Below the pieces are notes generated by a model. It saw only the letters and a program-made list of their open reading frames with translations. It was not told the origin of the DNA and did no database searches. From Chryseobacterium binzhouense (GTDB taxonomy: Bacteria > Bacteroidota > Bacteroidia > Flavobacteriales > Weeksellaceae): DNA of 64,000 nt. Both the position numbers and the translations under genes were made by a program. Below are positions 122-23,518 of this stretch, piece by piece. The stretch covers positions 310,001 through 374,000 of the forward strand of contig NZ_VKOG01000002.1 of the NCBI RefSeq assembly GCF_007474545.1, written 5' to 3'. How positions within the stretch are numbered: the first letter of the stretch is position 1; each line of letters starts with the position of its first letter.

Positions 122-160
122 AACCAGTAAATCTCGTAAATCTATCAAAGAATATTACAA
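122..160 (+). promoter_or_regulatory. Direct-repeat regulatory element, site 1
   Basis: One of seven copies of a 39-bp element. The first half reads AACCAGTAAATCTCGTAA and the second, 21 bp further on, TATCAAAGAATATTACAA. A -7-like box TACTTTTA begins at 183, which is 61 bp after the element start. The other functional copies show the same distance. It lies upstream of the Fur-family gene. Confidence 0.7.
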
Positions 161-228
161 GATGGAATAAAATCGACTTCTATACTTTTACATTGGATTT
201 ATTAGCTCATTTAATCCATAAAAGCAAG

Positions 229-678
229 ATGAAAAGTTTAGAAGAAAGGTTAGAAAAAAGAAGTATAAAACCAACATCAGTTAGATTATTAATTTTTCAG
301 ACAATGTCTGAATTTAAAAAAGCATTTAGCCTGACCGATTTGGAAACGGAACTAGAGACGGTAAATAAATCTACTATTTTTAGGACCTTGACCCTTTTTC
401 ATGACAACTTACTCATTCATACGATCGATGATGGTTCCGGCTCAATGAAATATTCAATTTGTAGTGATTCATGTATGTGCAATGTAGGTGACCTACATGT
501 ACATTTCAACTGTAACCGCTGTAAGAATACTTTTTGTCTTGAAAGTATTGCTATTCCACCGATTCAGCTGCCAGATAGTTTTTTATTGGAAAGTATAAAT
601 TTTGTAATGAAGGGAATGTGTAATGAGTGTTCGAGATTTTTTAAGAAACAAATAACTCCAAATAAAACCGCATTTTAA
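229..678 (+). CDS. Fur-family metal-responsive transcriptional regulator
   Basis: A 149-residue protein with an N-terminal winged helix-turn-helix (about 10-80, containing S-T-I-F-R-T-L) and a C-terminal metal-binding part. The latter carries the Fur-family pattern H-V-H-F-N-C-x-x-C around residue 100 and a second C-x-x-C near 135. I chose the ATG at 229 because the frame upstream opens only with TTG at 193, inside the predicted promoter. As a family member it should be a dimeric DNA-binding sensor of a divalent metal, but the metal (Zn, Fe or Mn) cannot be read from the sequence. It is first in the efflux region, has the direct-repeat element in its promoter and is followed by its own terminator. 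The 19-bp palindrome before the RND pump is a plausible target. Confidence 0.85.
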   Translation: MKSLEERLEKRSIKPTSVRLLIFQTMSEFKKAFSLTDLETELETVNKSTIFRTLTLFHDNLLIHTIDDGSGSMKYSICSDSCMCNVGDLHVHFNCNRCKNTFCLESIAIPPIQLPDSFLLESINFVMKGMCNECSRFFKKQITPNKTAF

Positions 679-680
679 AA

Positions 681-708
681 AACAGCCATATGTAAATATG
701 GCTGTTTT
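681..708 (+). terminator. Rho-independent terminator after the Fur-family gene
   Basis: AACAGCCATAT (681-691) and ATATGGCTGTT (696-706) form an 11-bp stem with a 4-base loop, followed by T residues. Confidence 0.8.
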
Positions 709-711
709 GCA

Positions 712-748
712 TTTGCAACCAGGTTCCCAAATACTACAGCTAATTTTG
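712..748 (+). promoter_or_regulatory. AACCAGGTT operator/promoter, copy 1
   Basis: TTTGCAACCAGGTTCCCAAA starts at 712 and holds the 9-bp dyad AACCAGGTT. A textbook -7 box TAATTTTG lies at 741-748. The same block with identical 29-bp start-to-start spacing occurs at 9009-9045 before the Zn/Cd ATPase. The dyad lies between TTTG and the -7 box across a longer than usual spacer (25 bp), as in MerR-type promoters. The regulator is unknown. Confidence 0.65.
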
Positions 749-773
749 TTGTGTAAAAATTCATAATATAGAT

Positions 774-1181
774 ATGGAAAATAGATATAATAATAACTCG
801 AAAATAAAATCAGGTTACGTAGATAACCCAGATTTTGAGGTAAAAAAAATTGAATGTGTAGTTTCTGAAAAAGAAACAATGTATACCTATACATCAATAC
901 TTCAATCTATGTCATCACACCCTATAGCAAGAGCTATTTTTAAAGTGTTGCCATCTGTACAATTATCAGACTATAGAATTGAAAAAGTTGAAGAAATACA
1001 AGGAGGAATTAAAGGTTTTATTGATAATCATGAAGTAATTATTGGAAATCTTGAATTGATGAAATGTTACGATTTTTATTATGATGAAAGCTTGAATCAT
1101 ATCAATGAAAAGGTGATTCTTGTAATGATAGATGATAGATATACAGGCTGCTTTATAATGAAAGAGGTGTTAAATGACTAA
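774..1181 (+). CDS. Free-standing P1B-type ATPase nucleotide-binding (N) domain
   Basis: A 135-residue protein that matches only the ATP-binding N domain of heavy-metal P-type ATPases. It has the diagnostic S-S-H-P-I-A-R-A-I segment near residue 45 and the G-G-I-K-G-F...I-I-G-N segment near 75-90. The catalytic DKTGT is absent (the N-terminus reads S-K-I-K-S-G-Y), there are no membrane helices, and the chain stops where the N domain would return to the P domain. It therefore cannot transport by itself. The frame is clean, with an ATG, a stop and its own promoter of the same design as the full ATPase gene at 9108. It could be a decoy, a regulator or a nucleotide sensor, or a neatly trimmed remnant of a duplicated ATPase gene. 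Confidence 0.7.
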   Translation: MENRYNNNSKIKSGYVDNPDFEVKKIECVVSEKETMYTYTSILQSMSSHPIARAIFKVLPSVQLSDYRIEKVEEIQGGIKGFIDNHEVIIGNLELMKCYDFYYDESLNHINEKVILVMIDDRYTGCFIMKEVLND

Positions 1182-1257
1182 ATTTATTTTAAATAAATTG
1201 CTAATTACATAATCTTTTATAGATTTCATTCATGAGAAAAATAACTTATTTGTTAAG

Positions 1258-1287
1258 TTGAGTGCTATTATATTTTTTGTAAGTTTG
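1258..1287 (+). promoter_or_regulatory. Flavobacterial promoter for the Cys-rich protein gene
   Basis: TTG at 1258-1260 and TAAGTTTG at 1280-1287, separated by 19 bp, match the Bacteroidota -33/-7 consensus. This argues against a coding start at 1258 and for the GTG at 1339. Confidence 0.65.
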
Positions 1288-1338
1288 TACCGACTTATTG
1301 GATGGATTATCAATCAATTAAAGTTTAAAATTAGAGAG

Positions 1339-1680
1339 GTGAAAATATTTGTATTTATATTCAGTGTTTATATGTTAGGGATGTCAATACTTCCCTGCAC
1401 AGACGCTTTGTATGAATGTACAGCAAATAACAACCAGTTAGTAGAAATTGGACTATCACATGAAGATAATCATAAAACGGAACACAAAGATTTTTGTAGT
1501 CCTTTTTGTTCTTGCCAATGTTGTGGAACCATTACTGTAGCTATTTCGGATTTCAACATAACCGAAGTAGTATCCCCAAAACTTAAATTGAACGCTAAAC
1601 AAAAGGTTTCTCTTAGAAATGTAAATCTCTATTCCCAATACTCCGGGAGCATATGGCAACCGCCAAAGATTAATGTTTAA
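1339..1680 (+). CDS. Small Cys-rich exported protein, DUF6660-like
   Basis: A 113-residue protein with an N-terminal hydrophobic segment (K-I-F-V-F-I-F-S-V-Y), then a proline-cysteine pair and a cluster C-S-P-F-C-S-C-Q-C-C in mid-chain. This pattern fits my memory of DUF6660, small Bacteroidota proteins beside metal efflux or TonB genes. The name comes from memory, not a search. I chose the GTG at 1339 because it follows a purine-rich AGAGAGG and because the frame upstream overlaps a good promoter. The Cys cluster could bind copper or another soft metal in the envelope. It precedes the RND pump gene in the same orientation. Confidence 0.6.
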   Translation: MKIFVFIFSVYMLGMSILPCTDALYECTANNNQLVEIGLSHEDNHKTEHKDFCSPFCSCQCCGTITVAISDFNITEVVSPKLKLNAKQKVSLRNVNLYSQYSGSIWQPPKINV

Positions 1681-1753
1681 AAAGTAATTACTAGTCTTTT
1701 CTCTTGCGCTTGTGAAGAATATTTCTTCGTGTGCGTCAGTAAAAATTATTGTA

Positions 1754-1772
1754 CTATCATTTTAAATGATAG
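1754..1772 (+). promoter_or_regulatory. 19-bp palindromic operator upstream of the RND pump gene
   Basis: CTATCATTT-T-AAATGATAG is a perfect 9-1-9 inverted repeat, the size of a Fur-type box. It lies directly before a -7-like TATACTTT at 1781-1788, and the coding start follows at 1810. A partial half of the direct-repeat element (TCAGTAAAAATTAT) sits at 1736-1749 but at the wrong spacing. The nearby Fur-family protein is the obvious candidate regulator, by inference. Confidence 0.6.
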
Positions 1773-1809
1773 AAATCGTATATACTTTAAATATTAATAC
1801 TAATCAAAA

Positions 1810-4800
1810 ATGTTAGATAACATAATTAAATTCAGTATCAAGAATAAGCTCATTATTGGAGTAATGACTTTGCTGCTGATAATATGGGGCGTATGGAGTG
1901 CTACAAAACTTCCTATAGATGCCCAGCCTGATATTACAAATAATCAGGTACAAGTTATAACTCTATGTCCTACTCTAGCGGGGCAGGAAGTTGAACAATT
2001 AGTTACATTTCCAGTAGAGCAAAGTATTGTCAATCTTCCTGATGTGGAAGAGATACGAAGTATTTCCCGTTTTGGACTTTCAGTCGTTACCGTTGTTTTT
2101 AAGGATGAAGTAGACATCTACTTTGCTAGACAACTGGTTAATGAGAAATTGAAAGAAGCTGAGGAGCAAATTCCTGAGGGTGTAGGCACACCGGAACTAT
2201 CCCCTGTTAGCACTGGCTTAGGTGAAGTGTATCAGTATATACTACATCCTAAAAAAGGTAGCGAAGACAAATATACCGCTATGGATCTGAGAACAATGCA
2301 AGATTGGATTGTTGCTCGTCAACTATATGGAACACCAGGAATTGCTGAAATCAATAGCTTTGGAGGGCTGCTGAAGCAGTATGAAGTTTCTGTCAATCCA
2401 GATCGTTTAAGAGCTATGGATGTGAGTATTTCCGAAATATTTTCTGCATTGGAAACTAATAACCAAAATACAGGAGGTGCATATATTGACAAGAAACCCA
2501 ATGCATATTTTATTAGAGGTGTAGGTTTGGTAAACACACTTGAAGATGTAGGGAATATTGTTGTAAAGAATATTTCAGGAGTTCCTATACTGGTAAAAGA
2601 TGTAGCAGAAGTACGTTTTGGTAATGCCATTCGTTACGGTGCGCTCACCTACAACGGAGAGGTAGATGCTGTGGGAGGAATCGTCATGATGCTCAAAGGA
2701 GAAAACAGTGCCAAAGTGGTAGAACGTATTAAGGAGAAAATTCCGACAATACAACAATCTCTACCAGACGATATCGTTATCGAACCTTATCTCGACAGAA
2801 CAGACCTTGTTGGACGTGCCATAGATACGGTTGAGAAAAATCTTATAGAGGGAGCTTTAATTGTAATTTTTGTCTTAATTCTGTTTCTAGGTAATTTAAG
2901 AGCTGGTTTAATTGTCGCTTCTGCTATTCCTTTGTCAATGCTATTTGCATTAGGTATGATGAGATTGTTTGGAGTGAGTGCCAATCTGATGAGTTTAGGA
3001 GCTATAGACTTTGGTTTGATTGTGGATGGTTCTTTGATTGTAGTGGAAGCAACAATGCATCATCTAGGGCTTAGAAAATCAAATAAGAGACTTACACAGG
3101 GAGAAATGGATGAAGAAGTGTTCGATTCTGCAAGAAAAATACGTACAAGTGCGGCTTTCGGAGAAATCATCATTCTTATTGTATACATCCCAATATTAAC
3201 ATTAGTAGGGATCGAAGGAAAAATGTTTACACCAATGGCTCAAACAGTCAGTTTTGCAATTATTGGAGCTTTAATTCTTTCATTCACCTATATCCCTATG
3301 ATGAGTGCACTGTTCTTGTCAAAGAAACCTATCACAAAAAAGAACCTGTCAGATAAAATGATGGATTTCTTAAACAAAGTGTATCAGCCCCTTTTAGAAA
3401 AAGCTATTAGATTAAAATATGTAGTGATAGGATCAGCGGTAGGTTTATTTGCAATCAGCTTATTCTTATTTTCCCGAATGGGTGGTGAATTCTTACCGAA
3501 ACTAGGTGAAGGAGATTTTGCAATGCATTGTATTCTACCTCAAGGGACTTCTTTAAGTCAAAGTTTGGAGACATCTATGCAAGCGTCTCGAATTCTGAAA
3601 GAATTTGACGAAGTTAAAATGGTGGTAGGAAAAACAGGTGCCGGTGAGATACCTACTGATCCGATGCCTCCGGAGGCTACAGATTTAATGGTCATTCTTA
3701 AGCCACAAAAAGAATGGAAAGAAAAAAAATCTTATGATGAGCTTTCAAACGAAATGATGGAAAAACTAGAAAGTATCCCAGGGGTTTTCTTTGAAGCTAA
3801 TCAGCCTATTCAGATGAGATTCAATGAATTAATGACGGGGATTCGTCAGGATGTGGCAGTGAAAATTTTTGGAGAAAATCTGGATTCTCTATTGGTGTAT
3901 GCTAATAAAGTTAATACTATAGTACAGACAATTCCGGGAGCGACTGCGCCACAAGTAGAAAGAGTGGATGGACTCCCTCAAATCAACATTGATTATGATC
4001 GGGCGAGAATTGCCAACTATGGTTTAAAAATTCAAGATATTAATGACATTGTGAGTACTGCCTTTGCAGGAAAAGCAGCAGGTGTAGTATATGAAAATGA
4101 GCGAAAATTCGATCTGGTAGTTCGTCTGGACAATGAGCACAGAACCTCTATAGAAGATGTAAGTAATCTATTCATACCAACGCCTAGTGGAGAACAAATT
4201 CCGCTTTCTCAAGTAGCTGATGTCAACTATAAATTAGGTCCAGCACAAATAAGCCGTGAAGACGGAAAACGTCGTATATATGTTGGCTTTAACGTTCAGG
4301 GAAGAGATGTTGCAAGTGTGGTGAAAGATATTCAAGACAAACTCGCTCAAGAAGTGAAACTTCCGAGCGGCTACTATGTAACGTATGGTGGTCAATTTGA
4401 AAATTTACAAAAAGCAAGCGATCGTTTACTCATCGCAGTGCCGATCTCACTTCTTCTAATATTTGTACTTCTTTACTTTACATTCCGTTCACTTAAAGAA
4501 GCGGCACTTGTATATGCTGCAATACCTATGAGTGCCATAGGTGGAGTATTTGCATTGTTGTTGAGAGATATGCCATTTAGTATTTCAGCCGGAGTTGGTT
4601 TTATTGCTTTGTTCGGTGTGGCGGTACTAAACGGAATCGTACTTATAGCAACATTCAATAGGTTAGAAAAAGAAGGTTGGGATGACATAGTTGCACGGGT
4701 AATTGAAGGAACCAAAACAAGGTTACGTCCTGTTCTAATGACGGCATCTGTTGCCAGTTTAGGTTTTCTTCCTATGGCTTTAAGTACCAGTGCGGGAGCT

Positions 4801-6165
4801 GAAGTACAAAAACCTCTTGCTACCGTAGTAATTGGCGGGCTGATTTCAGCTACAGCATTAACACTCTTTGTTCTTCCGCTACTGTATTTGGTATTTATGA
4901 AAACAAATAAAGCAATGAATAATAATAAAATTAAATCGATAACTCCAATAATATTATTGGGCATATTTTTAGGTCTCTCACAAAATATTCAAGCACAAGA
5001 TATTTCCGCAGATAAAGCTGTCCGAATTGCATTAGAAAATAATTCAGGAATTAAATCTAAAGATTTAGACGTAAGGGCAGCTGAAAGTCTGAAACGAACA
5101 GCTTATGAATTACCGAAAACCGAACTAAATATTCAATACGGAAATAACGAAGGATTTGAATATAATGATGGAGTTATGATTTCTCAAAACATTCCTTTTC
5201 CCACACTATTTGGAGCAAAAAAGGATCTTATTAAAGAAGAAATTAAAAGCAAAGAATGGGCAAAGGCTCTTTCAGAAAATGAATTAAAGAAGCAAGTACG
5301 TACCTATTATTATCAGTTGGAGTATCTTGAAAATAATGCTAAAAAACTTCAATACCTTGATAGCATTTATCTTGATTTTATAAGAGTAGCTAACTTGCGA
5401 TATAAGACTGGTGATATTGGTAAAATTGATGTAAGTACAGCAAACACTAAACGAGGTGAAATCAACCTTCTTGCTCAACAAAATGAGGTATTAAGAAAAA
5501 ATGCATACCTGAATTTAAAAAATCTAATGCAGATTGAGGAGGATTTCACCATCGAAAAAGCACTAGAATATAAGCCTGTATTTATAAGTGACATAATAGA
5601 TAATGATGCTGTTAGGAATCATCCAAGTATTCAATCTCTGTATCAAGAAGCACTTGTTGCTGAAAAAAGTAAAAAGGTAGAAAGAGCGAATGGATTGCCA
5701 GACTTTACTTTAGGTTACAGCAATATCTCATTGATTGGTGAACATAGCAAAAATGGTGTAGAAAAGTTTTATGGAAGAGGTCAAAGATTTGGATTTGTCG
5801 ATGTAGGAATTTCTATTCCAATTTTTACAACCACAAGATCAAGGGTTCGTTCGTTGGAAATTCAAAAAGAATCTGCAGAAATGAATGCGCAATGGCAGGA
5901 AAATGTTTTGAAAACAGAAATGAAAAATGCCATGACTCAATATGAGCAAAATGTGAGTCAGTTTAATTATTTTATTGAACAGGCAATTCCGAATGCAGAA
6001 GAAATTATAAATGCTTCACGTTTGGGATATAGCACAGGAGACCTTTCTTATGTAGAATATCTGTATGCCGTTCAAACAGCTACTGATACCTATTTAAACT
6101 ATCTTAAAAGTATACAGCAAATAAATGAATCTGTGATTGTTATCTATTCATTAACAAATAAATAA
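1810..6165 (+). CDS. czcA: CzcA/CusA-type heavy-metal RND pump fused to a TolC-like outer-membrane channel
   Basis: A 1451-residue fusion. Residues 1 to about 1032 are a complete HME-RND inner-membrane pump, and residues about 1036-1451 are an outer-membrane efflux protein with the paired helical repeats of TolC. The transmembrane-4 motif reads G-A-I-D-F-G-L-I-V-D-G near 397-407 with a Glu at 413. This D-F-G...D-G...E form is, from memory, typical of CzcA-like divalent-cation pumps rather than the Cu/Ag pump CusA. The junction contains a signal-peptide-like hydrophobic stretch ending Q-A-Q, so cleavage could free the channel. Such fusions are well known in Bacteroidota. The adaptor gene starts 5 bp downstream, so the whole tripartite system is one operon. 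Expected substrates are Co, Zn or Cd. Confidence 0.9.
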   Translation: MLDNIIKFSIKNKLIIGVMTLLLIIWGVWSATKLPIDAQPDITNNQVQVITLCPTLAGQEVEQLVTFPVEQSIVNLPDVEEIRSISRFGLSVVTVVFKDEVDIYFARQLVNEKLKEAEEQIPEGVGTPELSPVSTGLGEVYQYILHPKKGSEDKYTAMDLRTMQDWIVARQLYGTPGIAEINSFGGLLKQYEVSVNPDRLRAMDVSISEIFSALETNNQNTGGAYIDKKPNAYFIRGVGLVNTLEDVGNIVVKNISGVPILVKDVAEVRFGNAIRYGALTYNGEVDAVGGIVMMLKGENSAKVVERIKEKIPTIQQSLPDDIVIEPYLDRTDLVGRAIDTVEKNLIEGALIVIFVLILFLGNLRAGLIVASAIPLSMLFALGMMRLFGVSANLMSLGAIDFGLIVDGSLIVVEATMHHLGLRKSNKRLTQGEMDEEVFDSARKIRTSAAFGEIIILIVYIPILTLVGIEGKMFTPMAQTVSFAIIGALILSFTYIPMMSALFLSKKPITKKNLSDKMMDFLNKVYQPLLEKAIRLKYVVIGSAVGLFAISLFLFSRMGGEFLPKLGEGDFAMHCILPQGTSLSQSLETSMQASRILKEFDEVKMVVGKTGAGEIPTDPMPPEATDLMVILKPQKEWKEKKSYDELSNEMMEKLESIPGVFFEANQPIQMRFNELMTGIRQDVAVKIFGENLDSLLVYANKVNTIVQTIPGATAPQVERVDGLPQINIDYDRARIANYGLKIQDINDIVSTAFAGKAAGVVYENERKFDLVVRLDNEHRTSIEDVSNLFIPTPSGEQIPLSQVADVNYKLGPAQISREDGKRRIYVGFNVQGRDVASVVKDIQDKLAQEVKLPSGYYVTYGGQFENLQKASDRLLIAVPISLLLIFVLLYFTFRSLKEAALVYAAIPMSAIGGVFALLLRDMPFSISAGVGFIALFGVAVLNGIVLIATFNRLEKEGWDDIVARVIEGTKTRLRPVLMTASVASLGFLPMALSTSAGAEVQKPLATVVIGGLISATALTLFVLPLLYLVFMKTNKAMNNNKIKSITPIILLGIFLGLSQNIQAQDISADKAVRIALENNSGIKSKDLDVRAAESLKRTAYELPKTELNIQYGNNEGFEYNDGVMISQNIPFPTLFGAKKDLIKEEIKSKEWAKALSENELKKQVRTYYYQLEYLENNAKKLQYLDSIYLDFIRVANLRYKTGDIGKIDVSTANTKRGEINLLAQQNEVLRKNAYLNLKNLMQIEEDFTIEKALEYKPVFISDIIDNDAVRNHPSIQSLYQEALVAEKSKKVERANGLPDFTLGYSNISLIGEHSKNGVEKFYGRGQRFGFVDVGISIPIFTTTRSRVRSLEIQKESAEMNAQWQENVLKTEMKNAMTQYEQNVSQFNYFIEQAIPNAEEIINASRLGYSTGDLSYVEYLYAVQTATDTYLNYLKSIQQINESVIVIYSLTNK

Positions 6166-6170
6166 ACAAA

Positions 6171-7499: not shown

Positions 7500-7517
7500 C
7501 ATAATTTAAAAAAAATC

Positions 7518-13264: not shown

Positions 13265-13303
13265 AATCAGTAAAAATTATAAATTAAACAAAAAATCGTA
13301 CAA
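13265..13303 (+). promoter_or_regulatory. Direct-repeat regulatory element, site 2
   Basis: Halves AATCAGTAAAAATTATAA and AAACAAAAAATCGTACAA are 21 bp apart. A -7-like TAGCTTTA starts at 13326, which is 61 bp from the element start. The downstream gene is the second lipoamide dehydrogenase (13374). Confidence 0.7.
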
Positions 13304-13373
13304 TAACCGTAAACGTTATTTTGAATAGCTTTAAAGAAAGATTTAATAAAGTTTAACCGTAAAAAGTAATGCT

Positions 13374-14786
13374 ATGACATATGATGTAATTATTTTAGGA
13401 AGTGGTCCAGGAGGCTATGTAGCAGCTATTAGAGCTTCACAATTGGGGCTTAAAACAGCCATTGTAGAAAGGGAAAGCCTAGGAGGAATTTGCTTAAACT
13501 GGGGCTGTATTCCTGCAAAGGCTTTAATGAAATCTGCAGAAGTATTTGAATATCTTGCTCATGCAGAAAACTATGGAGCAAAGGTAGATGGGTATTCTGC
13601 AGATTTTGCTGCCATTATAAAACGAAGCCGCGGTGTTGCTGACAAAATGAGTAAAGGCGTTCAGTTTCTGATGAGAAAGAATAAAATTGATGTCATTAGC
13701 GGTGTTGGTAAAGTTATCTCCAAAAATGAAATAACTGTTAAAGGATCAGATGGAAAAACAGCAACTTATCAGGCAAAATACATCGTTCTTGCTACAGGTG
13801 CACGAGCTAGAGAATTGCCAAATCTTCCAATAGATGGCAAAAAAATCATTGGCTATCGTGAGGCAATGGTATTACCTGAACAACCCAAATCCATTATCAT
13901 TGTGGGAAGTGGAGCCATAGGTGTAGAATTTGCCTATTTCTATAACAGTATAGGTACTAAAGTGACTGTTGTGGAATACTTGCCTCGTATTGTTCCTGTG
14001 GAAGATGAAGATATTTCGAAAGAATTGGAAAAAGCATTTAAGAAAAAAGGAATTGAAATAATTACCAATGCTTCTGTAGAAAAAGCAGATGTTTCAGCTA
14101 CAGGAGTAAAAGCTACAATTAAAAAGACGGATGGTAGTGGCGAACAGGTATTGGAAGCGGATATACTGTTAAGTGCTGTAGGCATTGTAACAAATCTTGA
14201 AAATATTGGTATTGAAGAGTTAGGGATTAAAACAGAGCGTGGAAAAGTGCTGGTAGATGAAGGGTGTAAAACCAATATAGATAATATATATGCAATCGGC
14301 GATATTATTCCTGGTCCTGCGTTGGCTCACAAAGCGATGAAAGAAGCTGTAATTTGTGCCGAAGCTATAGCTTTTAAAGAAAGTAAATACGACCATCAAC
14401 CAACGCCTTTAGATTACGGAAATATGCCAGCATGTACCTACACCGGACCTGAAATTGCTTCGGTTGGTCTAACCGAAAAGCAGGCACGTGAGGCGGGAAT
14501 GGATATTAAAGTAGGTAAATTTCCATTGATGGCAAGTGGTAAAGCGAGTGCAGTAGGTGCTACTGATGGTTTTGTAAAAGTGATTTTTGATGCCAAGTAT
14601 GGAGAATGGATTGGAACGCATATGATTGGCTATAATGTAACGGAGTTGATAGCTCAAACCACAACTGCGCGTAAATTGGAAACAACATGGCACGAGCAAT
14701 TGGATACTATCTTTCCACATCCAACTATGAGTGAAGCCATAAAAGATGCTATTGAAGATGCCTTAGGTGAGGCAATACATCTATAA
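13374..14786 (+). CDS. lpdA: Dihydrolipoyl dehydrogenase-like flavoprotein (copy 2)
   Basis: A 470-residue flavoprotein disulfide reductase: FAD motif G-S-G-P-G-G at 9-14, redox pair Cys40/Cys45 in G-I-C-L-N-W-G-C, NAD motif V-G-S-G-A-I-G near 178 and C-terminal H-P-T-M-S-E. It is clearly divergent from the copy at 7518, so this is not a recent duplication. No dehydrogenase-complex partner is adjacent. The regulatory element in its promoter ties it to the metal regulon. Possible roles are normal E3 activity or thiol/metal reductase activity. The family is certain, the physiological role is not. Confidence 0.88.
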   Translation: MTYDVIILGSGPGGYVAAIRASQLGLKTAIVERESLGGICLNWGCIPAKALMKSAEVFEYLAHAENYGAKVDGYSADFAAIIKRSRGVADKMSKGVQFLMRKNKIDVISGVGKVISKNEITVKGSDGKTATYQAKYIVLATGARARELPNLPIDGKKIIGYREAMVLPEQPKSIIIVGSGAIGVEFAYFYNSIGTKVTVVEYLPRIVPVEDEDISKELEKAFKKKGIEIITNASVEKADVSATGVKATIKKTDGSGEQVLEADILLSAVGIVTNLENIGIEELGIKTERGKVLVDEGCKTNIDNIYAIGDIIPGPALAHKAMKEAVICAEAIAFKESKYDHQPTPLDYGNMPACTYTGPEIASVGLTEKQAREAGMDIKVGKFPLMASGKASAVGATDGFVKVIFDAKYGEWIGTHMIGYNVTELIAQTTTARKLETTWHEQLDTIFPHPTMSEAIKDAIEDALGEAIHL

Positions 14787-14830
14787 ATAAATACAAAATA
14801 CTTTTAAATTTATCTTTAAATTGATTGATT

Positions 14831-14905: not shown

Positions 14906-14930
14906 AATCCAGATTTGGTAATTTTTAAGA

Positions 14931-14955: not shown

Positions 14956-14978
14956 TTCTATCTATTAATTCAATTATT

Positions 14979-15012
14979 AAAAAAGTCACGGAATATAAAA
15001 CGTGACTTTTTT
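14979..15012 (-). terminator. Bidirectional terminator below osmC
   Basis: AAAAAAGTCACG pairs with CGTGACTTTTTT around a 10-base loop. It has A and T runs on both sides, so it can serve the minus-strand osmC gene and plus-strand read-through. Confidence 0.8.
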
Positions 15013-15035
15013 AATAAGAATAAACGAAATTAGTC

Positions 15036-15446
15036 TTAATTTAGAGTGGCTACTAGTGAAACTTCTAATTTATAAGCTTTTCCTACCGGACACATAGCTT
15101 TTGCTTGTTCTGCATAGTTTAAAAATTCTTCTTCATTTAAACCTGATATTTTTGCATTTAGCACCAAATCAGAGTTCGTAATATCGAAGCTGGTTGCTGT
15201 TATTGTACAAGATGTTTCTAAAGATTCTGCCTCAATCCCTTTGCTTGTAAGTATATAGTTTAACGTCATTGTATAACATGCAGCGTGTGCTGCGGCCATC
15301 AATTCTTCTGGATTTGTAGCGGTATTTTCTCCTTCAGATTTATTGTGTTTAAAAACACTGCTTCCAATGGCTGAATGTGCTGCATCGAAATTACCGCTTC
15401 CATTTTTAAAATTACCTTGCCACTTAGCTGTTACTTTTGCTTTCAT
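15036..15446 (-). CDS. osmC: OsmC-family peroxiredoxin
   Basis: A 136-residue protein of the OsmC/Ohr family, which reduces organic hydroperoxides with a thiol pair. The two catalytic cysteines are Cys57 in H-A-A-C-Y-T and Cys118 in A-M-C-P-V-G. The N-A-T-N-P-E-E-type segment before the first Cys fits the OsmC branch. The gene has its own flavobacterial promoter. It follows the AraC gene in the same direction with a 104-bp gap. Peroxide defence beside copper resistance makes sense, because copper drives radical chemistry. Confidence 0.9.
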   Translation of the reverse strand: MKAKVTAKWQGNFKNGSGNFDAAHSAIGSSVFKHNKSEGENTATNPEELMAAAHAACYTMTLNYILTSKGIEAESLETSCTITATSFDITNSDLVLNAKISGLNEEEFLNYAEQAKAMCPVGKAYKLEVSLVATLN

Positions 15447-15472
15447 TTTTAAATTTGTTTTAAATTACTTGA

Positions 15473-15503
15473 CAAAATTACTATCTAAAAAACGTGTCAT
15501 CAA
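15473..15503 (-). promoter_or_regulatory. Flavobacterial promoter of osmC
   Basis: On the minus strand TTG lies at 15503-15501 and TAATTTTG at 15480-15473, separated by 20 bp. The match to the -33/-7 consensus is full, 26 bp before the coding start. Confidence 0.65.
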
Positions 15504-15550
15504 TGCATATACTTCATTCTTAATAGGACTTTTTTCCTTTAACGAACACT

Positions 15551-16378
15551 TTAAATAGCGTTTCGGAAAGAAAGAGGTGGCAGACCCGTTTGAGATTTGA
15601 AAAATCGCACAAAATAGGAGTAGTCTTCATACCCGAGATAATCAGCAATTTCTTTAATGCTTAAGGTTGTATTGGCAAGTAACCTTTTAGCCTGAAGAAT
15701 AATTCTTTGCTTAATAATGATGCTTGGTGCTACCTGTTTTTCAGATACAATTTTTTTATTGAGGTTTTTAGGTGTGATGTTCAGCATATTTGCATAGTCA
15801 GAGACATTATGGTTCTTTCGATAATGAAGCTCTACCAATTGGCTGAATTTTCTGGCTAACTCCTTATCATATGAAACGATTTGACTGTCATTATTTGATT
15901 TTATCAAAGTCCTGGTTGCTGAAATGATTATTTGCTTGATGTATGTTTTTATCATTTCTTCAGCCCAAAAATCTTTTTTATTAATCTCTTTTTTTACAGA
16001 AGATATTAGTTTTAGGAAAAGGATGTCCAGATTCGTCGACAAATTTAGATAAGGTTGCTCGAATACATTATCAAAAAGGAGCCCGTCACAGGCAAGCTCT
16101 TTATCATGGAAAGCTATGCAATAAAAATCAGGATTGAAATAAATTAGATTTCCTCTAGATTCCTTGGATATTTGAAAATGCTGACCAATACTGAAGAAAA
16201 GCAAGGCGTTTTCTGTAAAGCTGTACTCTACGAAATCTACGGTAATGCTACCGTTTTTCTCCATATAAATGATTTTATAGTGGTCTTCCAGCAGCGTATT
16301 GCTATTTATCTTATTTTCAGATTTATTATCAAAATCCAGATATCCTATCGATTGTCTTTTATTTAATCCGGCATCCAT
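15551..16378 (-). CDS. AraC-family transcriptional regulator
   Basis: A 275-residue regulator with a C-terminal double helix-turn-helix. The second unit is clear in S-I-K-E-I-A-D-Y-L-G-Y and Y-F-V-R-F-F-K. The N-terminal cupin-like part should sense a ligand. I chose the ATG at 16378 because the longer frame begins with TTG and lacks support. It lies in the middle of the metal region. Members of this family bind two direct repeats on one helix face, which is the design of the seven elements found here, so it is the best candidate to bind them (inference). Its own upstream region shows no such element. A control role for osmC or hpd is possible. Confidence 0.88.
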   Translation of the reverse strand: MDAGLNKRQSIGYLDFDNKSENKINSNTLLEDHYKIIYMEKNGSITVDFVEYSFTENALLFFSIGQHFQISKESRGNLIYFNPDFYCIAFHDKELACDGLLFDNVFEQPYLNLSTNLDILFLKLISSVKKEINKKDFWAEEMIKTYIKQIIISATRTLIKSNNDSQIVSYDKELARKFSQLVELHYRKNHNVSDYANMLNITPKNLNKKIVSEKQVAPSIIIKQRIILQAKRLLANTTLSIKEIADYLGYEDYSYFVRFFKSQTGLPPLSFRNAI

Positions 16379-16421
16379 TTTTTCTCTATCTATGAATATT
16401 TGTTCCAACCTTTGTCCCAAT

Positions 16422-16452
16422 AACAAAGCCCTATTTTTTTTAGGGCTTTGTA
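16422..16452 (-). terminator. Hairpin between hpd copy 1 and the AraC gene
   Basis: AACAAAGCCCTA pairs with TAGGGCTTTGTA around a loop of T residues. It probably ends hpd transcription before the AraC gene. The T tract on the minus strand is weak. Confidence 0.5.
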
Positions 16453-16481
16453 TATATTAAACTAAAATTACACATTATACA

Positions 16482-17642: not shown

Positions 17643-17837
17643 TGTTTTTTATTTTTATAATATGATTTTGATACATGATTTGTGTACACTGGATGAAGTG
17701 TAGTTGTATTTAGAACTTGTATCCCAGCTATAACATAGCACGATGCAAAACCGAAAGAAAGGTTTTGATAGACATTTTATAATTAGTTAGTGTTATTCTT
17801 TGGTAAATGTATTTCACTTATTTATAACAAACATTAT

Positions 17838-17876
17838 AATCAGTAAAAGTCATAAAACAAACCAGAAATATTACAA
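17838..17876 (+). promoter_or_regulatory. Direct-repeat regulatory element, site 3 (distal of a tandem pair)
   Basis: Halves AATCAGTAAAAGTCATAA and AAACCAGAAATATTACAA. The copy lies exactly 60 bp upstream of site 4 and has no -7 box of its own. It may be an auxiliary site or the product of a local duplication. Confidence 0.7.
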
Positions 17877-17897
17877 GTGGAACTATTTTTGGTAAAT

Positions 17898-17936
17898 AAT
17901 CAGTAAATGTCATAAATCAAACAAAGAATATCACAA
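17898..17936 (+). promoter_or_regulatory. Direct-repeat regulatory element, site 4
   Basis: Halves AATCAGTAAATGTCATAA and AAACAAAGAATATCACAA. The -7-like GAACTTTG begins at 17959, 61 bp from the element start and 22 bp after its end. It serves the first HMA gene. Confidence 0.78.
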
Positions 17937-17999
17937 CCAATATTACCTGTTATCTTATGAACTTTGTACTCAAGAAATACAATTAAAAAGTTCAAAACA

Positions 18000-18221
18000 A
18001 TGGAAAGCAAAAACCTTCAATTCAAGACAAACCTTAACTGTGGTAACTGTGTTGCTAAAGTACAGGGTGATTTAGATAGCGCTAATGGTATCAGCGAATG
18101 GAATGTAGATACTGCAAATAGTGATAAAATCCTTACGGTAAAATCAGAAGGAATTAGCGAAGACGAAATCGTTACAATTATTAAGAAAAAAGGGTTTAAA
18201 GCCGAACCTATTTCACAATAA
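18000..18221 (+). CDS. HMA-domain copper chaperone (copy 1)
   Basis: A 73-residue protein that is a single heavy-metal-associated domain of ferredoxin-like fold. The usual M-x-C-x-x-C loop appears as L-N-C-G-N-C at residues 14-19, so the Met is replaced by Leu. I chose the ATG at 18000 because the longer frame would begin inside the promoter. It should bind Cu(I) in the cytoplasm and pass it on. It is very similar to the copy at 23581. It lies 40 bp before the DUF3347 gene, a likely two-gene unit ended by the hairpin at 18717. Confidence 0.85.
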   Translation: MESKNLQFKTNLNCGNCVAKVQGDLDSANGISEWNVDTANSDKILTVKSEGISEDEIVTIIKKKGFKAEPISQ

Positions 18222-18261
18222 TATAATAAGCAATTCATTAATCATAAAAAAGAGATAAAAA

Positions 18262-18705
18262 ATGAAAAAGTTAATAATAGCAATAACCGTAATGTTGTTT
18301 GGATTTTCTGCTTTTGCACAAAACACAAGCAATCTGTTAAACAGTTACATCAGTGTAAAAAACGCTTTAGTAAGTAGTGATAGCAAAGCAGCGAGCACCG
18401 CAATTTCGGTTTTCAACGATGCAGTAAAAGGTGAAGATAATTTTTCACAGAAAACCGATCTGTTAAAAGCTACAGAAAAATTAAACAAGGCTGGAAACAA
18501 TATTGAAAAGCAAAGAGCAGCTTTTAACGATGTTTCTACTATAATGTGGAAACTGGTAAAGTCGTCCGATAAAGTAAGTCAACCTGTTTATTATCAGTAT
18601 TGTCCTATGAAAAAAGCATATTGGTTGAGCAAAGAGAAAGATATTAAAAATCCTTATTATGGTTCATCAATGCTTACTTGTGGTAAAGTTGCAGAAACTA
18701 AATAA
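18262..18705 (+). CDS. Secreted DUF3347-domain protein, putative periplasmic copper-binding
   Basis: A 147-residue protein with a signal peptide (cleavage after A-F-A, about residue 19), a helical region and a C-terminal DUF3347 signature: Y-Y-Q-Y-C-P-M, then K-N-P-Y-Y-G-S-S-M-L-T-C-G. The Cys/Met-containing ends suit copper binding. DUF3347 domains are commonly found on CusB-like adaptors and near copper genes, but their biochemical role is not well established. A terminator follows, so the multicopper oxidase gene may be transcribed partly separately. Confidence 0.82.
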   Translation: MKKLIIAITVMLFGFSAFAQNTSNLLNSYISVKNALVSSDSKAASTAISVFNDAVKGEDNFSQKTDLLKATEKLNKAGNNIEKQRAAFNDVSTIMWKLVKSSDKVSQPVYYQYCPMKKAYWLSKEKDIKNPYYGSSMLTCGKVAETK

Positions 18706-18716
18706 TAAAAACCTTT

Positions 18717-18745
18717 AAGGCATTGCTCAGTGAACAATGCCTTTT
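18717..18745 (+). terminator. Terminator between the DUF3347 and multicopper oxidase genes
   Basis: AAGGCATTG (18717-18725) and CAATGCCTT (18735-18743) form a 9-bp stem followed by TT. Read-through could still feed the oxidase gene, because no clean promoter is visible in between. Confidence 0.7.
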
Positions 18746-18775
18746 AATCTTTGTATAACCAATGCGATTTTTAAA

Positions 18776-21136
18776 ATGAATAATAAAAAATTTCTTCACA
18801 AAAAGTTGTTGCTGCTAACTCTGTTAGCGCTCTTCATATCACAGGTCGGTATAGCCCAAAAAGTAGTACGTTACGATTTGTATGTAAAAGATACCATCGT
18901 AAACTATGCAGGCAAAGAAAAAAGAGCAATCGCTGTAAATGGGCAAATACCAATGCCAACACTTGAATTTACTGAAGGCGATACGGCAGAAATAGTGTTA
19001 CATAATCAACTTAAAGAAAGTACCTCATTGCATTGGCACGGATTATTTCTGCCCAATAAAGAAGATGGCGTTCCTTTTTTAACGCAAATGCCCATTGAAC
19101 CTGGTGAAACCTTTACGTATCGTTTCCCTATTATTCAAACGGGAACGCATTGGTATCATTCTCATTCAGGATTGCAAGAGCAGATTGGTATGTATGGGAG
19201 CTTTATCATGCATAAGAAAGCTGATGATAAAACATTTAGAAAAGGGATTGACGATTTGCCAGAAGTACCAATAATGTTAAGCGAATGGACAAATCTAAAG
19301 CCAGAAAACGTTCATCGCATGTTACATAATGCAAGCGACTGGTTTGCTATACAAAAAGGAGCTACTCAAAGTTATGCAGAAGCCATTAGAAGCGGCAATT
19401 TCAAAACGAAATTGAAAAATGAATGGAAACGTATGATGGCAATGGATGTAAGTGATGTGTATTATGATAAAGTATTGATGAATGGAAACCATTTGACAGA
19501 TTTGAAGTCGATAGATGGCAAACCTCTGAAAGCAGGTGATAAAGTACGTTTGCGTATTTCTAATGGTGGTGCATCGTCTTACTTTTGGTTGCGATATGCA
19601 GGTGGAAAAATGACTGTAGTAGCAAGTGATGGTAACGATGTAGAACCTGTAGATGTAGACCGATTAATTATTGCTGTATCAGAAACATATGATGTAGTCG
19701 TTACAATTCCTGAAGATGGCAAAGCCTTTGAATTTATGGCTACTACTGAAGATAGAACGCAATCTACCAGTTATTTCATTGGTAATGGAGAAAGAGAAAA
19801 GGTGGGAGAAATGCCACGTCTCAAGTATTTTGAAGGAATGAAGATGATGAATGATATGATGAAGATGAATGGCGACCTTGATGATATGGGTATGAATATG
19901 AGTTGGAATCAAATGGATATGAATGTAGTAATGTATCCAGAGATTACAGGTGCAGAAAAGAAGAAAGGAAAGAAAATGGACGAAGCTATGGATCATAGCA
20001 AAATGGATCATGGAACTATGAACATGAAGCAAAGTGCTGAAAAAACCGATCATAGTAAAATGAACCATGGTGAGATGGGTATGGATGAAGATCCAAATCG
20101 CTATAATGCGAATGCATTAAGCGAGATTGTTACGCTTAATTACGCCATGCTGAAATCCCCAAATAATACTGAATTGCCCAAAAATGCACCAGTAAAAGAA
20201 TTGAAGTTTACATTGACTGGAAATATGAACCGTTATGTATGGAGCATGGATGATAAAGTACTATCTGAGAGCGATAAAATACCTGTAAAGAAAGGAGAAG
20301 TATTGCGCATTACACTCTATAATAATTCAATGATGCGACATCCCATTCACTTACACGGATTCGATTTTAGATTACTAAACGATAAAGGAGAAAACGCTCC
20401 GATGAAAAACATCATTGACATTATGCCGATGGAAACCGATACCATTGAATTCCTCGCAAATGAAGAAGGTGATTGGTTTTTTCATTGTCATATATTGTAT
20501 CACATGATGGCAGGTATGAACAAAGTTTTTGCTGTGGGTGATTATGAAAACCCTTATCTACCCAATAAGGATAAAGCCTATAAAATGTTACAGCGTGAAA
20601 GTAATATGATCCATTTTATGGCTCAGAATGATTTTGCGACCAATGGTAATGACGGTGAAATGATGTTTATGAATGCTCGATATAGTTTGGGTACAGAATG
20701 GAGATTAGGTTACAATGATATGCACGGTTACGAAGTGGAAACTCATTTTGGTCGTTATATAGGAAAAATGCAATGGTTGATGCCTTTTATTGGTTTCGAC
20801 TGGCGTTATCGTAAAATGGGGATGGATGAGCATGAAAAAAATCTTTTTGGACAAGTAAATAAAAAAGATAAACGAGGAGCATTTAGTCTTGGTGTTATGT
20901 ATACCTTACCTATGTTGGTTAATGTACAAGCGGAGGTATATCACGATGGTATTTTTCGTGTTTCGCTAATGCGAGAGGATATACCTCTTTCCAAAAGATT
21001 GCGAGCAGGGTTTATGGTAAATACGGATATGGAATATATGGCAGATTTGCGATATATCCTTACAAGACATATCGGTGTGAGAACACATTATGATAGCGAT
21101 ATGGGCTTTGGAGTAGGTTTGTCAGTTAATTATTAA
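18776..21136 (+). CDS. copA: Multicopper oxidase (CopA-like) with C-terminal barrel-like extension
   Basis: A 786-residue exported protein: signal peptide, then three cupredoxin domains with all copper motifs (H-W-H-G near 85, H-W-Y-H-S-H near 128, H-P-I-H-L-H-G near 525 and H-C-H-I-L-Y-H-M-M-A-G-M near 575). A Met/His-rich insert (about 360-440, with repeated M-D-H and K-M motifs) should hold extra Cu(I). It oxidises Cu(I) to Cu(II) in the periplasm. The last 170 residues or so are beta-rich with regular aromatics, end in G-V-G-L-S-V-N-Y and resemble a CopB-type outer-membrane barrel part. I chose the ATG at 18776 because it begins a proper signal peptide. Confidence 0.9.
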   Translation: MNNKKFLHKKLLLLTLLALFISQVGIAQKVVRYDLYVKDTIVNYAGKEKRAIAVNGQIPMPTLEFTEGDTAEIVLHNQLKESTSLHWHGLFLPNKEDGVPFLTQMPIEPGETFTYRFPIIQTGTHWYHSHSGLQEQIGMYGSFIMHKKADDKTFRKGIDDLPEVPIMLSEWTNLKPENVHRMLHNASDWFAIQKGATQSYAEAIRSGNFKTKLKNEWKRMMAMDVSDVYYDKVLMNGNHLTDLKSIDGKPLKAGDKVRLRISNGGASSYFWLRYAGGKMTVVASDGNDVEPVDVDRLIIAVSETYDVVVTIPEDGKAFEFMATTEDRTQSTSYFIGNGEREKVGEMPRLKYFEGMKMMNDMMKMNGDLDDMGMNMSWNQMDMNVVMYPEITGAEKKKGKKMDEAMDHSKMDHGTMNMKQSAEKTDHSKMNHGEMGMDEDPNRYNANALSEIVTLNYAMLKSPNNTELPKNAPVKELKFTLTGNMNRYVWSMDDKVLSESDKIPVKKGEVLRITLYNNSMMRHPIHLHGFDFRLLNDKGENAPMKNIIDIMPMETDTIEFLANEEGDWFFHCHILYHMMAGMNKVFAVGDYENPYLPNKDKAYKMLQRESNMIHFMAQNDFATNGNDGEMMFMNARYSLGTEWRLGYNDMHGYEVETHFGRYIGKMQWLMPFIGFDWRYRKMGMDEHEKNLFGQVNKKDKRGAFSLGVMYTLPMLVNVQAEVYHDGIFRVSLMREDIPLSKRLRAGFMVNTDMEYMADLRYILTRHIGVRTHYDSDMGFGVGLSVNY

Positions 21137-21156
21137 TATTAACAACAAATGGAAAT

Positions 21157-21192
21157 AAAAACGGTTATTACATTACGTCATAACCGTTTTTT
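21157..21192 (+). terminator. Strong terminator after the multicopper oxidase gene
   Basis: AAAAACGGTTAT and ATAACCGTTTTT form a 12-bp stem with an 11-base loop, followed by more T. Confidence 0.9.
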
Positions 21193-21212
21193 ATTTTACA
21201 CAAGTACGGAAT

Positions 21213-21251
21213 AATCAGTAAACCTCATAAATCAAACAAGAAATATCACAA
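21213..21251 (+). promoter_or_regulatory. Direct-repeat regulatory element, site 5
   Basis: Halves AATCAGTAAACCTCATAA and AAACAAGAAATATCACAA. The -7-like CAATTTTG begins at 21274, 61 bp from the element start. It serves the MFS gene. Confidence 0.78.
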
Positions 21252-21301
21252 CAAGAAGATTAAACTAATTTGACAATTTTGTATTGTAAATTTTTAAGAT
21301 T

Positions 21302-22498
21302 ATGACAGCTAAAATAAAATGGAATAATGTATATCTCTTGTTTTTATCACAAGCATTATTTCAGACCGCATCGATATTAGTCATTACACTTTCAGGAATT
21401 GTAGGAATGGTTATGGCTTCTGATAAAAACATGTCAACCATTCCAGTTGCGATGATTACAGTTGGCGCAGCAGCTATGATGATTCCAGCGTCAATAATTA
21501 TTAAAAATTTAGGTCAAAGGAAAGCCTTTATGATTGGAACATTGATAGGCGTTCTTGCTGGCTTAGTTTCTTGGTATGGAATTGTTCAGAATTCGTTCTG
21601 GATTTTTGCTATTGGAAATATGTTGATTGGCGCTTATCAAGGGTTTTCACAGTATTATCGTTTTGCGGCTGCAGATTCTGTGCCGGATAATGCAAAGAGT
21701 AAAGCCATTTCTTTTGTGATTGCCGGAGGTGTCGTTGCAGCATTTGCGGGACCTAATTTGGCAAGATTTACACAGCATTTGGGAAGCGTGCCTTATGCAT
21801 ATTCTTTTTTTTCTATTGTACTTTTAAGTGTCTTGGCATTTGGAGTAGTTTCGTTACTTAAATTTCAAGCAAAGCCGGTAGCTCGAAATAATGAATCTTT
21901 AAAAAAAGGTCGTTCATTAAAAGAAATCTTCAAAAGTAAAGATGCCGTTTTAGCTGTGCTTTCATCAGCTACAGCATTTGCGGTGATGGGAATGTCTATG
22001 ACGGTTACGCCTATTGCAATGCATGGTTTCGGTCATAGTTCTGATGATTCGGCAACTGTAATTCAATGGCATGTGTTAGGTATGTTTTTGCCTTCATTTT
22101 TTACAGGCATCCTCATTCAGAAATTTGGAGTTTATAAAATCATTACAACTGGATTGTTGATTTTGTTTCTCTATATTTTCATTGCTCTTTCTGGTACCGA
22201 TTTTACACATTTCGTATCAGCATTATTTATTGTTGGTTTAGGTTGGAACTTCTTGTTTATTGGTGGATCCGCATTATTAACAAAAGTATATAGACCTGAA
22301 GAGAAAGAAAAAACACAAGCATTTCATGACTTCACGGTTTTTGCAGTAATCAGTATTGCCAGTTTTTTTGCAGGAAGTTTATTTAATAATTGGGGCTGGA
22401 ATGGCATTAATATTGTTTTAATTCCAATGCTTCTTATTACATTAATTGCGGTAATTAAAATTATAATGACAAATAAGAGCGCGCACGAGAATCAGTAA
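21302..22498 (+). CDS. MFS transporter, substrate unknown
   Basis: A 398-residue membrane protein with about 12 hydrophobic helices and the major facilitator layout: a short basic loop K-N-L-G-Q-R-K-A-F after helix 2 and a longer charged central loop (about 190-215). The substrate cannot be read from the sequence. Its place in the copper module and the shared element suggest a metal- or stress-related role, such as efflux of a metal complex, but this is inference. Its stop codon overlaps element site 6. Confidence 0.85.
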   Translation: MTAKIKWNNVYLLFLSQALFQTASILVITLSGIVGMVMASDKNMSTIPVAMITVGAAAMMIPASIIIKNLGQRKAFMIGTLIGVLAGLVSWYGIVQNSFWIFAIGNMLIGAYQGFSQYYRFAAADSVPDNAKSKAISFVIAGGVVAAFAGPNLARFTQHLGSVPYAYSFFSIVLLSVLAFGVVSLLKFQAKPVARNNESLKKGRSLKEIFKSKDAVLAVLSSATAFAVMGMSMTVTPIAMHGFGHSSDDSATVIQWHVLGMFLPSFFTGILIQKFGVYKIITTGLLILFLYIFIALSGTDFTHFVSALFIVGLGWNFLFIGGSALLTKVYRPEEKEKTQAFHDFTVFAVISIASFFAGSLFNNWGWNGINIVLIPMLLITLIAVIKIIMTNKSAHENQ

Positions 22499-22529
22499 AA
22501 ATCACAATTATCTTCCAAAAAATCGTAAC
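22490..22529 (+). promoter_or_regulatory. Direct-repeat regulatory element, site 6 (degenerate)
   Basis: The first half AATCAGTAAAAATCACAA is intact. The second is weaker and appears shifted by about 2 bp. The -7-like GAACTTTG begins at 22551, again 61 bp away. The element overlaps the stop codon of the MFS gene. Confidence 0.6.
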
Positions 22530-22617
22530 TAATAAAAACGAAATAATAAGGAACTTTGTAATTAGAAAAGAATCAAGTTATAATATCAAAATAATTAACG
22601 TTTTTCTTAAAAATATT

Positions 22618-23475
22618 ATGAATACACAACATCAATCCAGCAGCGAAAATATATTTATTTGCCCTATGCACCCAGAAGTCAAAGGGAATAAAGGTGATAA
22701 ATGTTCAAAATGTGGAATGAATTTAGTTCCAGAAAATAAAGGAACAGCAAAACATTTTGATGTGATTATATCTTCTGAACCTGAAGTTATTGAAGCAGGG
22801 AAATCGACGCAGTTTAAAATCATTGTAAAGAACGAAGATAAAGTTGTGTCATTAGAAGAAGTACATGAAATGAAAATGCATCTTCTAGTTGTGAATGAAG
22901 AACTAACTTGGTTTGACCATATCCATCCCATTGAACAAGAAGACGGTTCTTATCTTATTGATGAAATATTTCCAACTGCTGGGGACTACTTATTTTTTGT
23001 AGATTATAAGCCTGAGAACGAGGAAGGGAATGTTTACAAACATTCGTTAAATGTAGTAGGAAATACTACAGAAATAGCACAGTTAGATACAAATGCAAAA
23101 TTTGAATCAGAATCAGATGGCTACACAGCTAGAATATTGAATGGAGCAGATTTGAAAACAAATACAAGTCAGCCATTGCAATTTGAGATTCTAAAAGATG
23201 GCAACAAGATCAATGACGATGAATTGCAAAACTATTTAGGAGCAAAAGCTCATATTGTAATGATTAGCCAAGCTGAAAAAGAATTTTTGCATATTCACCC
23301 AATGTCTAATGAAAGTTATCAGATTTATGCAGAAACACTAATCAAGAAACCAGGTTTATATAGAATGTGGATGCAATTTAAGATTAGTAATAAAGTGCAC
23401 ACTGTAGATTTTACGGTACATGTTGCTGAGGGTAACAAAACGAGCGAAGGTCATAATCATCATCACAAACACTAA
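22618..23475 (+). CDS. Heavy-metal-binding-domain protein with YtkA-like repeats
   Basis: A 285-residue protein. The N-terminus carries the heavy-metal-binding motif C-P-M-H-P-E...C-S-K-C-G-M-N-L (about 15-40), usually seen on CusB-like adaptors and copper ATPases. Two beta-rich YtkA-like segments follow (about 45-135 and 150-270), each with H-I-H-P-type motifs, and the chain ends H-N-H-H-H-K-H. No signal peptide is visible. It is probably a metal buffer or delivery protein. It has its own promoter with a regulatory element. Confidence 0.75.
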   Translation: MNTQHQSSSENIFICPMHPEVKGNKGDKCSKCGMNLVPENKGTAKHFDVIISSEPEVIEAGKSTQFKIIVKNEDKVVSLEEVHEMKMHLLVVNEELTWFDHIHPIEQEDGSYLIDEIFPTAGDYLFFVDYKPENEEGNVYKHSLNVVGNTTEIAQLDTNAKFESESDGYTARILNGADLKTNTSQPLQFEILKDGNKINDDELQNYLGAKAHIVMISQAEKEFLHIHPMSNESYQIYAETLIKKPGLYRMWMQFKISNKVHTVDFTVHVAEGNKTSEGHNHHHKH

Positions 23476-23479
23476 AAAA

Positions 23480-23518
23480 AATCAGTAAAAATCGTAAATC
23501 AAACAAGGAATATCATAA
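23480..23518 (+). promoter_or_regulatory. Direct-repeat regulatory element, site 7
   Basis: Halves AATCAGTAAAAATCGTAA and AAACAAGGAATATCATAA. The -7-like GACTTTTG begins at 23540, 60 bp from the element start. It serves the second HMA gene. Confidence 0.78.

Follow-up and report, generated by a model that had tools for sequence, protein, structure and literature searches.

Copper-responsive control of copA and of copper chaperone genes by CueR (MerR family) and by CsoR is exerted through inverted-repeat sites, and the known activators of the AraC/XylS family (AraC, MelR type) bind half-sites that are arranged as tandem direct repeats and adjoin the core promoter. In the archaeal TRASH-domain copper regulators of the CopT/CopR type a metal-binding domain is fused to a helix-turn-helix (HTH) part, next to copA. 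The locus described here, a stretch of 64,000 nucleotides of Chryseobacterium binzhouense DNA (contig NZ_VKOG01000002.1, positions 310,001 to 374,000; hereafter the window), contains seven copies of a 39-bp element placed in front of predicted metal genes. Most probably these elements are the operators of a copper regulon carried on a genomic island, and sequence comparison indicates that they would be bound by an activator of about 187 amino acids (aa), termed HMA-AraC, with HmaAraC1 as its main copy on the island. Element and regulator occur paired in many Bacteroidota.

The HMA-AraC protein is similar to the AraC/XylS activators in its C-terminal AraC HTH and in direct-repeat halves about two helix turns apart, but it differs from them in the sensor, which is a ~65-aa HMA copper-chaperone-like domain and not a cupin, in its total length of only ~187 aa, and in the use of a -7 box TAnnTTTG and not a -10 box. 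It is unrelated to CueR and CsoR, although like them it is placed with copA and chaperone genes, which it would presumably control in response to copper. With the CopT/CopR type it shares the fusion of a metal-binding domain to an HTH and the position next to copA, and it differs in metal domain, HTH family, and phylum. The initial annotation knew of no description of such a regulon, and none was found in the open-access literature; an HMA-AraC copper regulator and a one-component copper regulator of Bacteroidota were likewise not found described there, which is weak evidence of novelty, most subscription papers being outside this scope. The analysis delimits a protein family, defines a 39-bp operator whose promoter geometry is exact, and lists the targets; binding and copper response are therefore both directly testable.

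The 39-bp Element and Its Promoters

All seven elements were recovered at the starts listed in the initial annotation, each composed of two 18-bp direct-repeat halves with a 21-bp period, the copy at 22490 being degenerate. The first-listed family of an unguided repeat search consisted of six of the seven elements together with one poor member (61%) at 23548. With leave-one-out matrices the same number of elements (6/7) scored 32.8–50.6, the best non-site reaching 11.3–13.5 each time; the degenerate element, left out of the matrix, scored 11.1 versus 14.1 for the best non-site and is indistinguishable on its own, and its counterparts are intact in three related islands (L257, L258, and L260). 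Among lags 5–31, lag 21 gives the greatest similarity within the element (0.60), and the direct match at this lag is 0.54 versus 0.345 in shuffled sequence; the best inverted match (0.47 versus 0.275 shuffled) is confined to the first half and the linker. The spacing is conserved in relatives as well: when half-site matrices were applied with any gap from -6 to +29 allowed, the 3-bp linker giving the 21-bp period was found in 120 of 121 half-site pairs from 80 related loci, which are the best 80 of 453 regulator relatives, with elements counted at a score threshold of >18.

In the 3.61-Mb genome a pattern allowing up to 3 mismatches was matched 9 times in the forward direction and never in reverse, and the backward control gave 0 matches. 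An element model built from 15 own sites gave 17 matches at E≤0.01, the next one appearing only at E=0.3; 16 of them are located on contig 9 (C9), 15 of these within 45 kb, and one on contig 12. The 15 model sites are among the 16 contig-9 matches by construction, and the element at C9:447197 is outside the model. The contig-12 match (C12:51371) is weak, lies inside a 731-aa open reading frame (ORF), and was probably a chance match. Thus the random spread through the genome that had been proposed as an argument against a regulon is not what was found. Conservation per column across the 15 own sites is strongest in the two halves (1.27 and 1.04 bits), followed by the linker (0.89) and the -7 box (0.83), and is low in the spacer (0.20) and the upstream flank (0.17).

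TAnnTTTG is the Bacteroidota -7 consensus, and the box behind the elements fits it. The -7-like box about 61 bp after the element start was confirmed at all six positions where it had been noted, and among 109 distinct promoters of relatives 97 have a TTTG that begins at offset 65 and 6 have one at offset 64, with A at 62 and T at 65 invariant (109/109). The end of the second half sits at the place expected for the -33 box. An ORF is present behind 167 of the 169 elements in the 80 loci, its start lying at a median of 56 bp behind the element. In the doublet 17838/17898, with starts 60 bp apart, a single -7 box is found behind the second member, and a doublet with a distance of 60–61 bp is also present in four related islands (L257, L258, L260, and L262). 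This is the geometry expected of activator-dependent promoters, and direct repeats on one helix face would suit an AraC-type protein, as was suggested in the initial annotation.

The Putative HMA-AraC Regulator

The HmaAraC1 gene (187 aa; C9:288080–288640, which is L010:16080–16640) is located about 22 kb upstream of the window; the element that precedes copA overlaps the stop codon of this gene. The C-terminal part of the protein is an AraC HTH and the N-terminal part, which contains MVCNRC, gives a weak CopZ match when taken alone. An N-terminal profile of 26 relatives obtained 23 PDB matches at E≤0.1 (best 6e-12), all of them named copper P-type ATPases, copper chaperones (including CopZ), or heavy-metal-binding proteins, and profile comparison of this domain with the HMA domains of the own genome gave 94%. 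The AraC-type HTH is represented by PF12833 (HTH_18) and PF00165 in all 84 members, and MVCxRC is kept in 132 of 144 regulators. A divergent paralogue, HmaAraC2 (C9:303187–303747), is probably under the regulon itself because elements lie in its promoter region. The regulator family, with CxxC and SxxC types taken together, occurs in 119 of 247 sampled genomes at E≤1e-15; in the 15 plasmid records listed out of 194, the annotation of the proteins goes no further than generic AraC, helix-turn-helix, or response regulators, or is absent.

Further observations concern the other members of the family. The 12 MVSxRC proteins (L145, L146, L148, L149, L155, L157, L158, L170, L175, L183, L185, and L186) fall into a single group (support 85/72, with the bootstrap not settled) in a tree of 124, and the first ORFs downstream of them read unlike copA, perhaps reflecting a switch of signal. 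An HTH-only AraC protein (L011:6189–6593), 37% identical to the C-terminal part of HmaAraC1, is encoded just behind a small HMA gene (5847–6086) that has an element, a possible split into sensor and DNA-binder. A Fur-family gene lies immediately behind an HMA-AraC gene in one other genome of the class (L154/L206, G122:C86), an independent link between the two regulators.

Linkage of Element and Regulator

The 169 elements are distributed over 77 of the 80 related loci, 165 of them on the strand of the regulator; the reversed-matrix control over 926,875 bp gave 0 matches over 18 and 2 at threshold 12. The element starts within 12 bp of the regulator stop in 65 loci and within 250 bp in 70, and 63 of those 65 loci have a P-type ATPase with CPC as the following ORF. 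Whole-genome searches of 36 genomes picked from those behind the 80 loci found elements in every one, from 1 to 14 apiece.

A less biased test was provided by the 247-genome sample, which was not chosen by the regulator. There the element was found at E≤0.01 in 18 genomes, and 16 of these have the regulator versus 119 of 247 overall. Ten of the 12 strongest matches outside the own genome (E≤0.002) have a regulator gene no more than 5 kb away, and four of the ten are at most 10 bp from the end of the regulator match; as for the other two, G238 is without regulator at the limit used and the regulator position of G065 is not among the matches listed. The element score downstream of the gene falls with regulator divergence (Spearman 0.75 for 130 CxxC-type regulators, not corrected for shared ancestry): it is above 12 bits in 72 of 81 cases at ≥75% regulator identity and in 4 of 6 at 60–75%, and none of the 130 upstream controls of these CxxC-type regulators exceeds 12 bits. 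A degree of 21-bp periodicity is seen behind the stop of distant CxxC regulators, where lag 21 ranks first or equal first in 15 of 49 cases, with a mean of 8.71 versus 7.92 shuffled (sd 0.19). For the SxxC type the 21-bp period is not clear (mean 8.75 versus 8.16 shuffled, sd 0.30; lag 21 first or equal first in 2 of 12), and an element-like score >12 is found downstream in one of the 12 loci (L158).

Several facts weigh against the assignment of the elements to a copper-sensing HMA-AraC activator. The 80 loci were picked by regulator likeness, and many of them are copies of related islands, so that they are not independent; three of them (L077, L089, and L094) have no element over 18. In the 247-genome sample the search at E≤0.01 gave no element for 103 of the 119 genomes with a regulator, and two of the 18 element-bearing genomes, G238 and G196, are without regulator at E≤1e-15, their single element matches being weak (E=0.0016 and 0.0049). 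Below 60% regulator identity the 39-bp matrix exceeds 12 bits in 5 of 43 CxxC-type cases. Single sequences reach Pfam HMA (PF00403) at E≤0.01 in 9 of 84 members, SxxC replaces CxxC in 12 of 144 regulators, the own genome has four full-length members and one HTH-only copy, and some targets (Lpd2 and two MFS genes) are not copper genes. The regulator genomes lacking an element fit a divergence of the element together with the regulator.

Which Protein Reads the Elements

In the initial annotation the reader was proposed to be the AraC-family protein encoded in the window itself (15551–16426, reverse strand). The prediction of an AraC-type reader is supported by the sequence comparison, and the identity given to it is not, since the elements track HMA-AraC instead. 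The window protein is of the AraC type and lies in the island of some relatives (identity 96%, 93%, and 93% in G298, G300, and G301 and 66% in G305 and G306), but it is >60% identical in only 5 of the 36 element-bearing genomes, and 13 of the 36, among them G299 with 12 elements, have no homologue at E≤1e-30; strong elements without it are found in G002 as well. Its homologues listed from the 247-genome sample beyond the own genome are on other contigs than the elements or more than 200 kb off. The best NCBIfam match is HpaA, below the cut-off, and the gene adjoins ORFs that read as HPPD and OsmC. The absence from element-bearing genomes and the distant homologues rule this candidate out for practical purposes, leaving it a very slight probability. 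A role of HmaAraC2 or of the HTH-only protein as the main reader in place of HmaAraC1 is somewhat more probable and still unlikely: both are encoded on the island, the divergent promoter region of HmaAraC2 has elements, likewise in L256, L259, and L261, and the HTH-only gene follows a small HMA gene with an element, but it is at the stop of HmaAraC1-type genes that the elements lie in 65 of 80 loci, and exactly two target classes (copA and the 73-aa HMA protein) follow an HmaAraC1-type gene in 32 of 80, other paralogues there not being counted.

Binding by a regulator of another family (Fur/Zur, MerR, or a response regulator) finds some support in the Fur-family gene within the cluster, which is itself a target. 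Fur and MerR sites are inverted repeats, but the element is a direct repeat by the lag-21 match given above, and none of 29 other loci with Fur homologues has an element, which makes such a binder very unlikely. It is also hardly credible that the elements are a structural or mobile repeat, whether DNA bent by A-tracts or a site of recombination at which cargo is collected, and not operators. They are indeed A-rich and periodic and stand between cargo genes of a mobile element, but the distance to the -7 box is fixed in 103 of 109 distinct promoters despite the variable spacer and the unconserved flank, and an element is also present 113 kb from the island, at a copA gene (C9:447197).

The preferred explanation, operators bound by HMA-AraC, would work as follows. 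Cu(I) would bind to the MxCxxC site of the HMA domain, and two protomers would occupy the 18-bp halves as neighbours on the same helix face, 21 bp from each other, as is suggested by the rigidity of the repeat. RNA polymerase might then be recruited by a class II contact, because the downstream half is approximately at the -33 place, 22 bp before the TAnnTTTG-like -7 box; the geometry is observed and the activation presumed. In this way copA, small HMA chaperones, the azurin-like cupredoxin, the DUF326 protein, the multicopper oxidase, and the cation diffusion facilitator (CDF) transporter would be switched on, and in this island also Fur, MFS, HMBD, and Lpd2. We lean slightly to a broader view, in which the copper response in much of Bacteroidota would be run by a one-component HMA-AraC fusion sensor, maybe loaded by the chaperones that it induces, and islands would move the self-contained regulon between orders with its sensor and a dozen promoters.

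Targets and Signal

When the 167 ORFs that follow elements are named by reading and by their resemblance to genes of the island itself, 72 are copA (one cut short), 42 encode the 73-aa HMA protein, and 19 an 81-aa HMA protein; the remaining ones are 12 azurin-like, 7 DUF326, 4 CDF, 4 TetR-like, 2 multicopper oxidases, and 5 singletons. Copper is the likely signal because most of these ORFs read as copper genes, and the metal or copper regulon supposed in the initial annotation is supported to this extent. The inclusion of Fur and of the heavy-metal-binding-domain (HMBD) protein among the targets holds in part: the element is present in close relatives of the island and absent at more distant homologues. 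The Fur search matched 54 of 296 genomes and the HMBD search 4 of 296, and elements were found in none of the 29 and 3 other loci, respectively, that were scanned with ~1.5-kb flanks. Fur, MFS, and HMBD look like island additions to the regulon. The own genome (G000) has no CsoR-family (PF02583) match at E≤1e-5 and no CueR (TIGR02044) match at E≤1e-20. In the 247-genome sample the CsoR family occurs in 74 genomes, eight of which also have an HMA-AraC regulator (kinship not removed), and CueR-like proteins in 30 at E≤1e-20, none of them over the family cut-off.

The Island and Its Mobile Context

The window starts inside the cluster, and nine further sites are located outside it, eight of them in the 21 kb upstream (C9:288639–303132). 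The upstream elements precede copA, the CDF transporter, the DUF326 protein, the azurin-like cupredoxin, and a 79-aa HMA protein; one precedes a segment in which a Cys-rich ORF of 26 aa and an MFS gene are found, and two form a divergent pair between HmaAraC2 and an 88-aa ORF. The 26-aa ORF, which ends in DCCCHC, occupies the expected target position behind the element at 3402 (L011:3402–3560), and no second case was found among the loci examined. For the ninth element (C9:447197), 113 kb from the island, the gene immediately upstream encodes a 78%-identical regulator, and the one downstream is a second P-type ATPase gene, in which HMA and CPC motifs are present.

To the left of the cluster (L010) an RteC-like ORF is found together with ORFs resembling a coupling protein, a topoisomerase, and an excisionase, these conjugation-type ORFs being named by reading and not by family search. 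RteC is a mark of Bacteroidota conjugative elements, and judging by gene content the regulon is cargo of an apparent integrative conjugative element. This putative element resembles CTnDOT-like elements in having RteC at the right edge of the metal cargo and ORFs that read as conjugation genes to the left, and it differs from CTnDOT in its cargo, where a metal regulon that includes its sensor takes the place of an antibiotic-resistance module. Closely related islands with the same elements are present in four other genomes, recorded as Allomuricauda, Ferruginibacter, Flavobacterium, and Paenimyroides; the assignment is less sure for two of them, whose records are metagenome-assembled.

Features of the Window

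Element 1 (122–160, forward strand, as are all seven elements and the genes behind them) is upstream of the Fur-family regulator gene (226–678; PF01475, E=5.7e-7), with the -7-like box at 183–190 (TACTTTTA); an element before Fur is also present in L256, L259, and L261. Element 2 (13265–13303; box 13326–13333, TAGCTTTA) is upstream of a second dihydrolipoyl dehydrogenase gene, Lpd2 (13374–14786; TIGR01350 above cut-off), and no element was found in front of the Lpd2 homologue in L257. In the doublet, element 3 (17838–17876) is the upstream member without a -7 box of its own, and element 4 (17898–17936; box 17959–17966, GAACTTTG) is the promoter-proximal one. Behind them a run from 18000 to 21136 is opened by a 73-aa HMA protein (18000–18221) and continued by a DUF3347 protein (18262–18705; PF11827, E=1.9e-11) and a multicopper oxidase (18737–21136), whose TIGR01480 copper_res_A match (E=2.3e-119, 399.5 bits) is below the cut-off of 478.95.

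Element 5 (21213–21251; box 21274–21281, CAATTTTG) precedes the MFS transporter gene (21302–22498; PF07690, E=3.9e-28), as also in L257, L258, and L260. Element 6 (22490–22528; box 22551–22558, GAACTTTG), in which the second half is the degenerate one, overlaps the MFS stop and precedes the HMBD protein gene (22618–23475; PF19335, E=4.1e-10). Element 7 (23480–23518), with the TTTG at offset 64, one base nearer than usual, is upstream of the second 73-aa HMA protein (23581–23802), a paralogue of that at 18000–18221, and has counterparts in L257, L258, L260, and L262. The RteC-family gene (23931–24794, forward strand; PF09357, E=2.1e-85) marks the right edge of the metal cargo and has the same position in these four loci. 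Just past it a tRNA-Arg gene (25235–25309) is a possible integration site of the mobile element.

Two further ORFs stand between the first elements. A 135-aa ORF (774–1181) resembles a piece of a P-type ATPase, with no Pfam match at E≤0.001, and its homologues in L256, L259, and L261 are located between Fur and the next metal genes. The ORF at 1810–6165 encodes a CzcA-like RND pump and reads as a single-ORF fusion with a TolC-like outer-membrane part.

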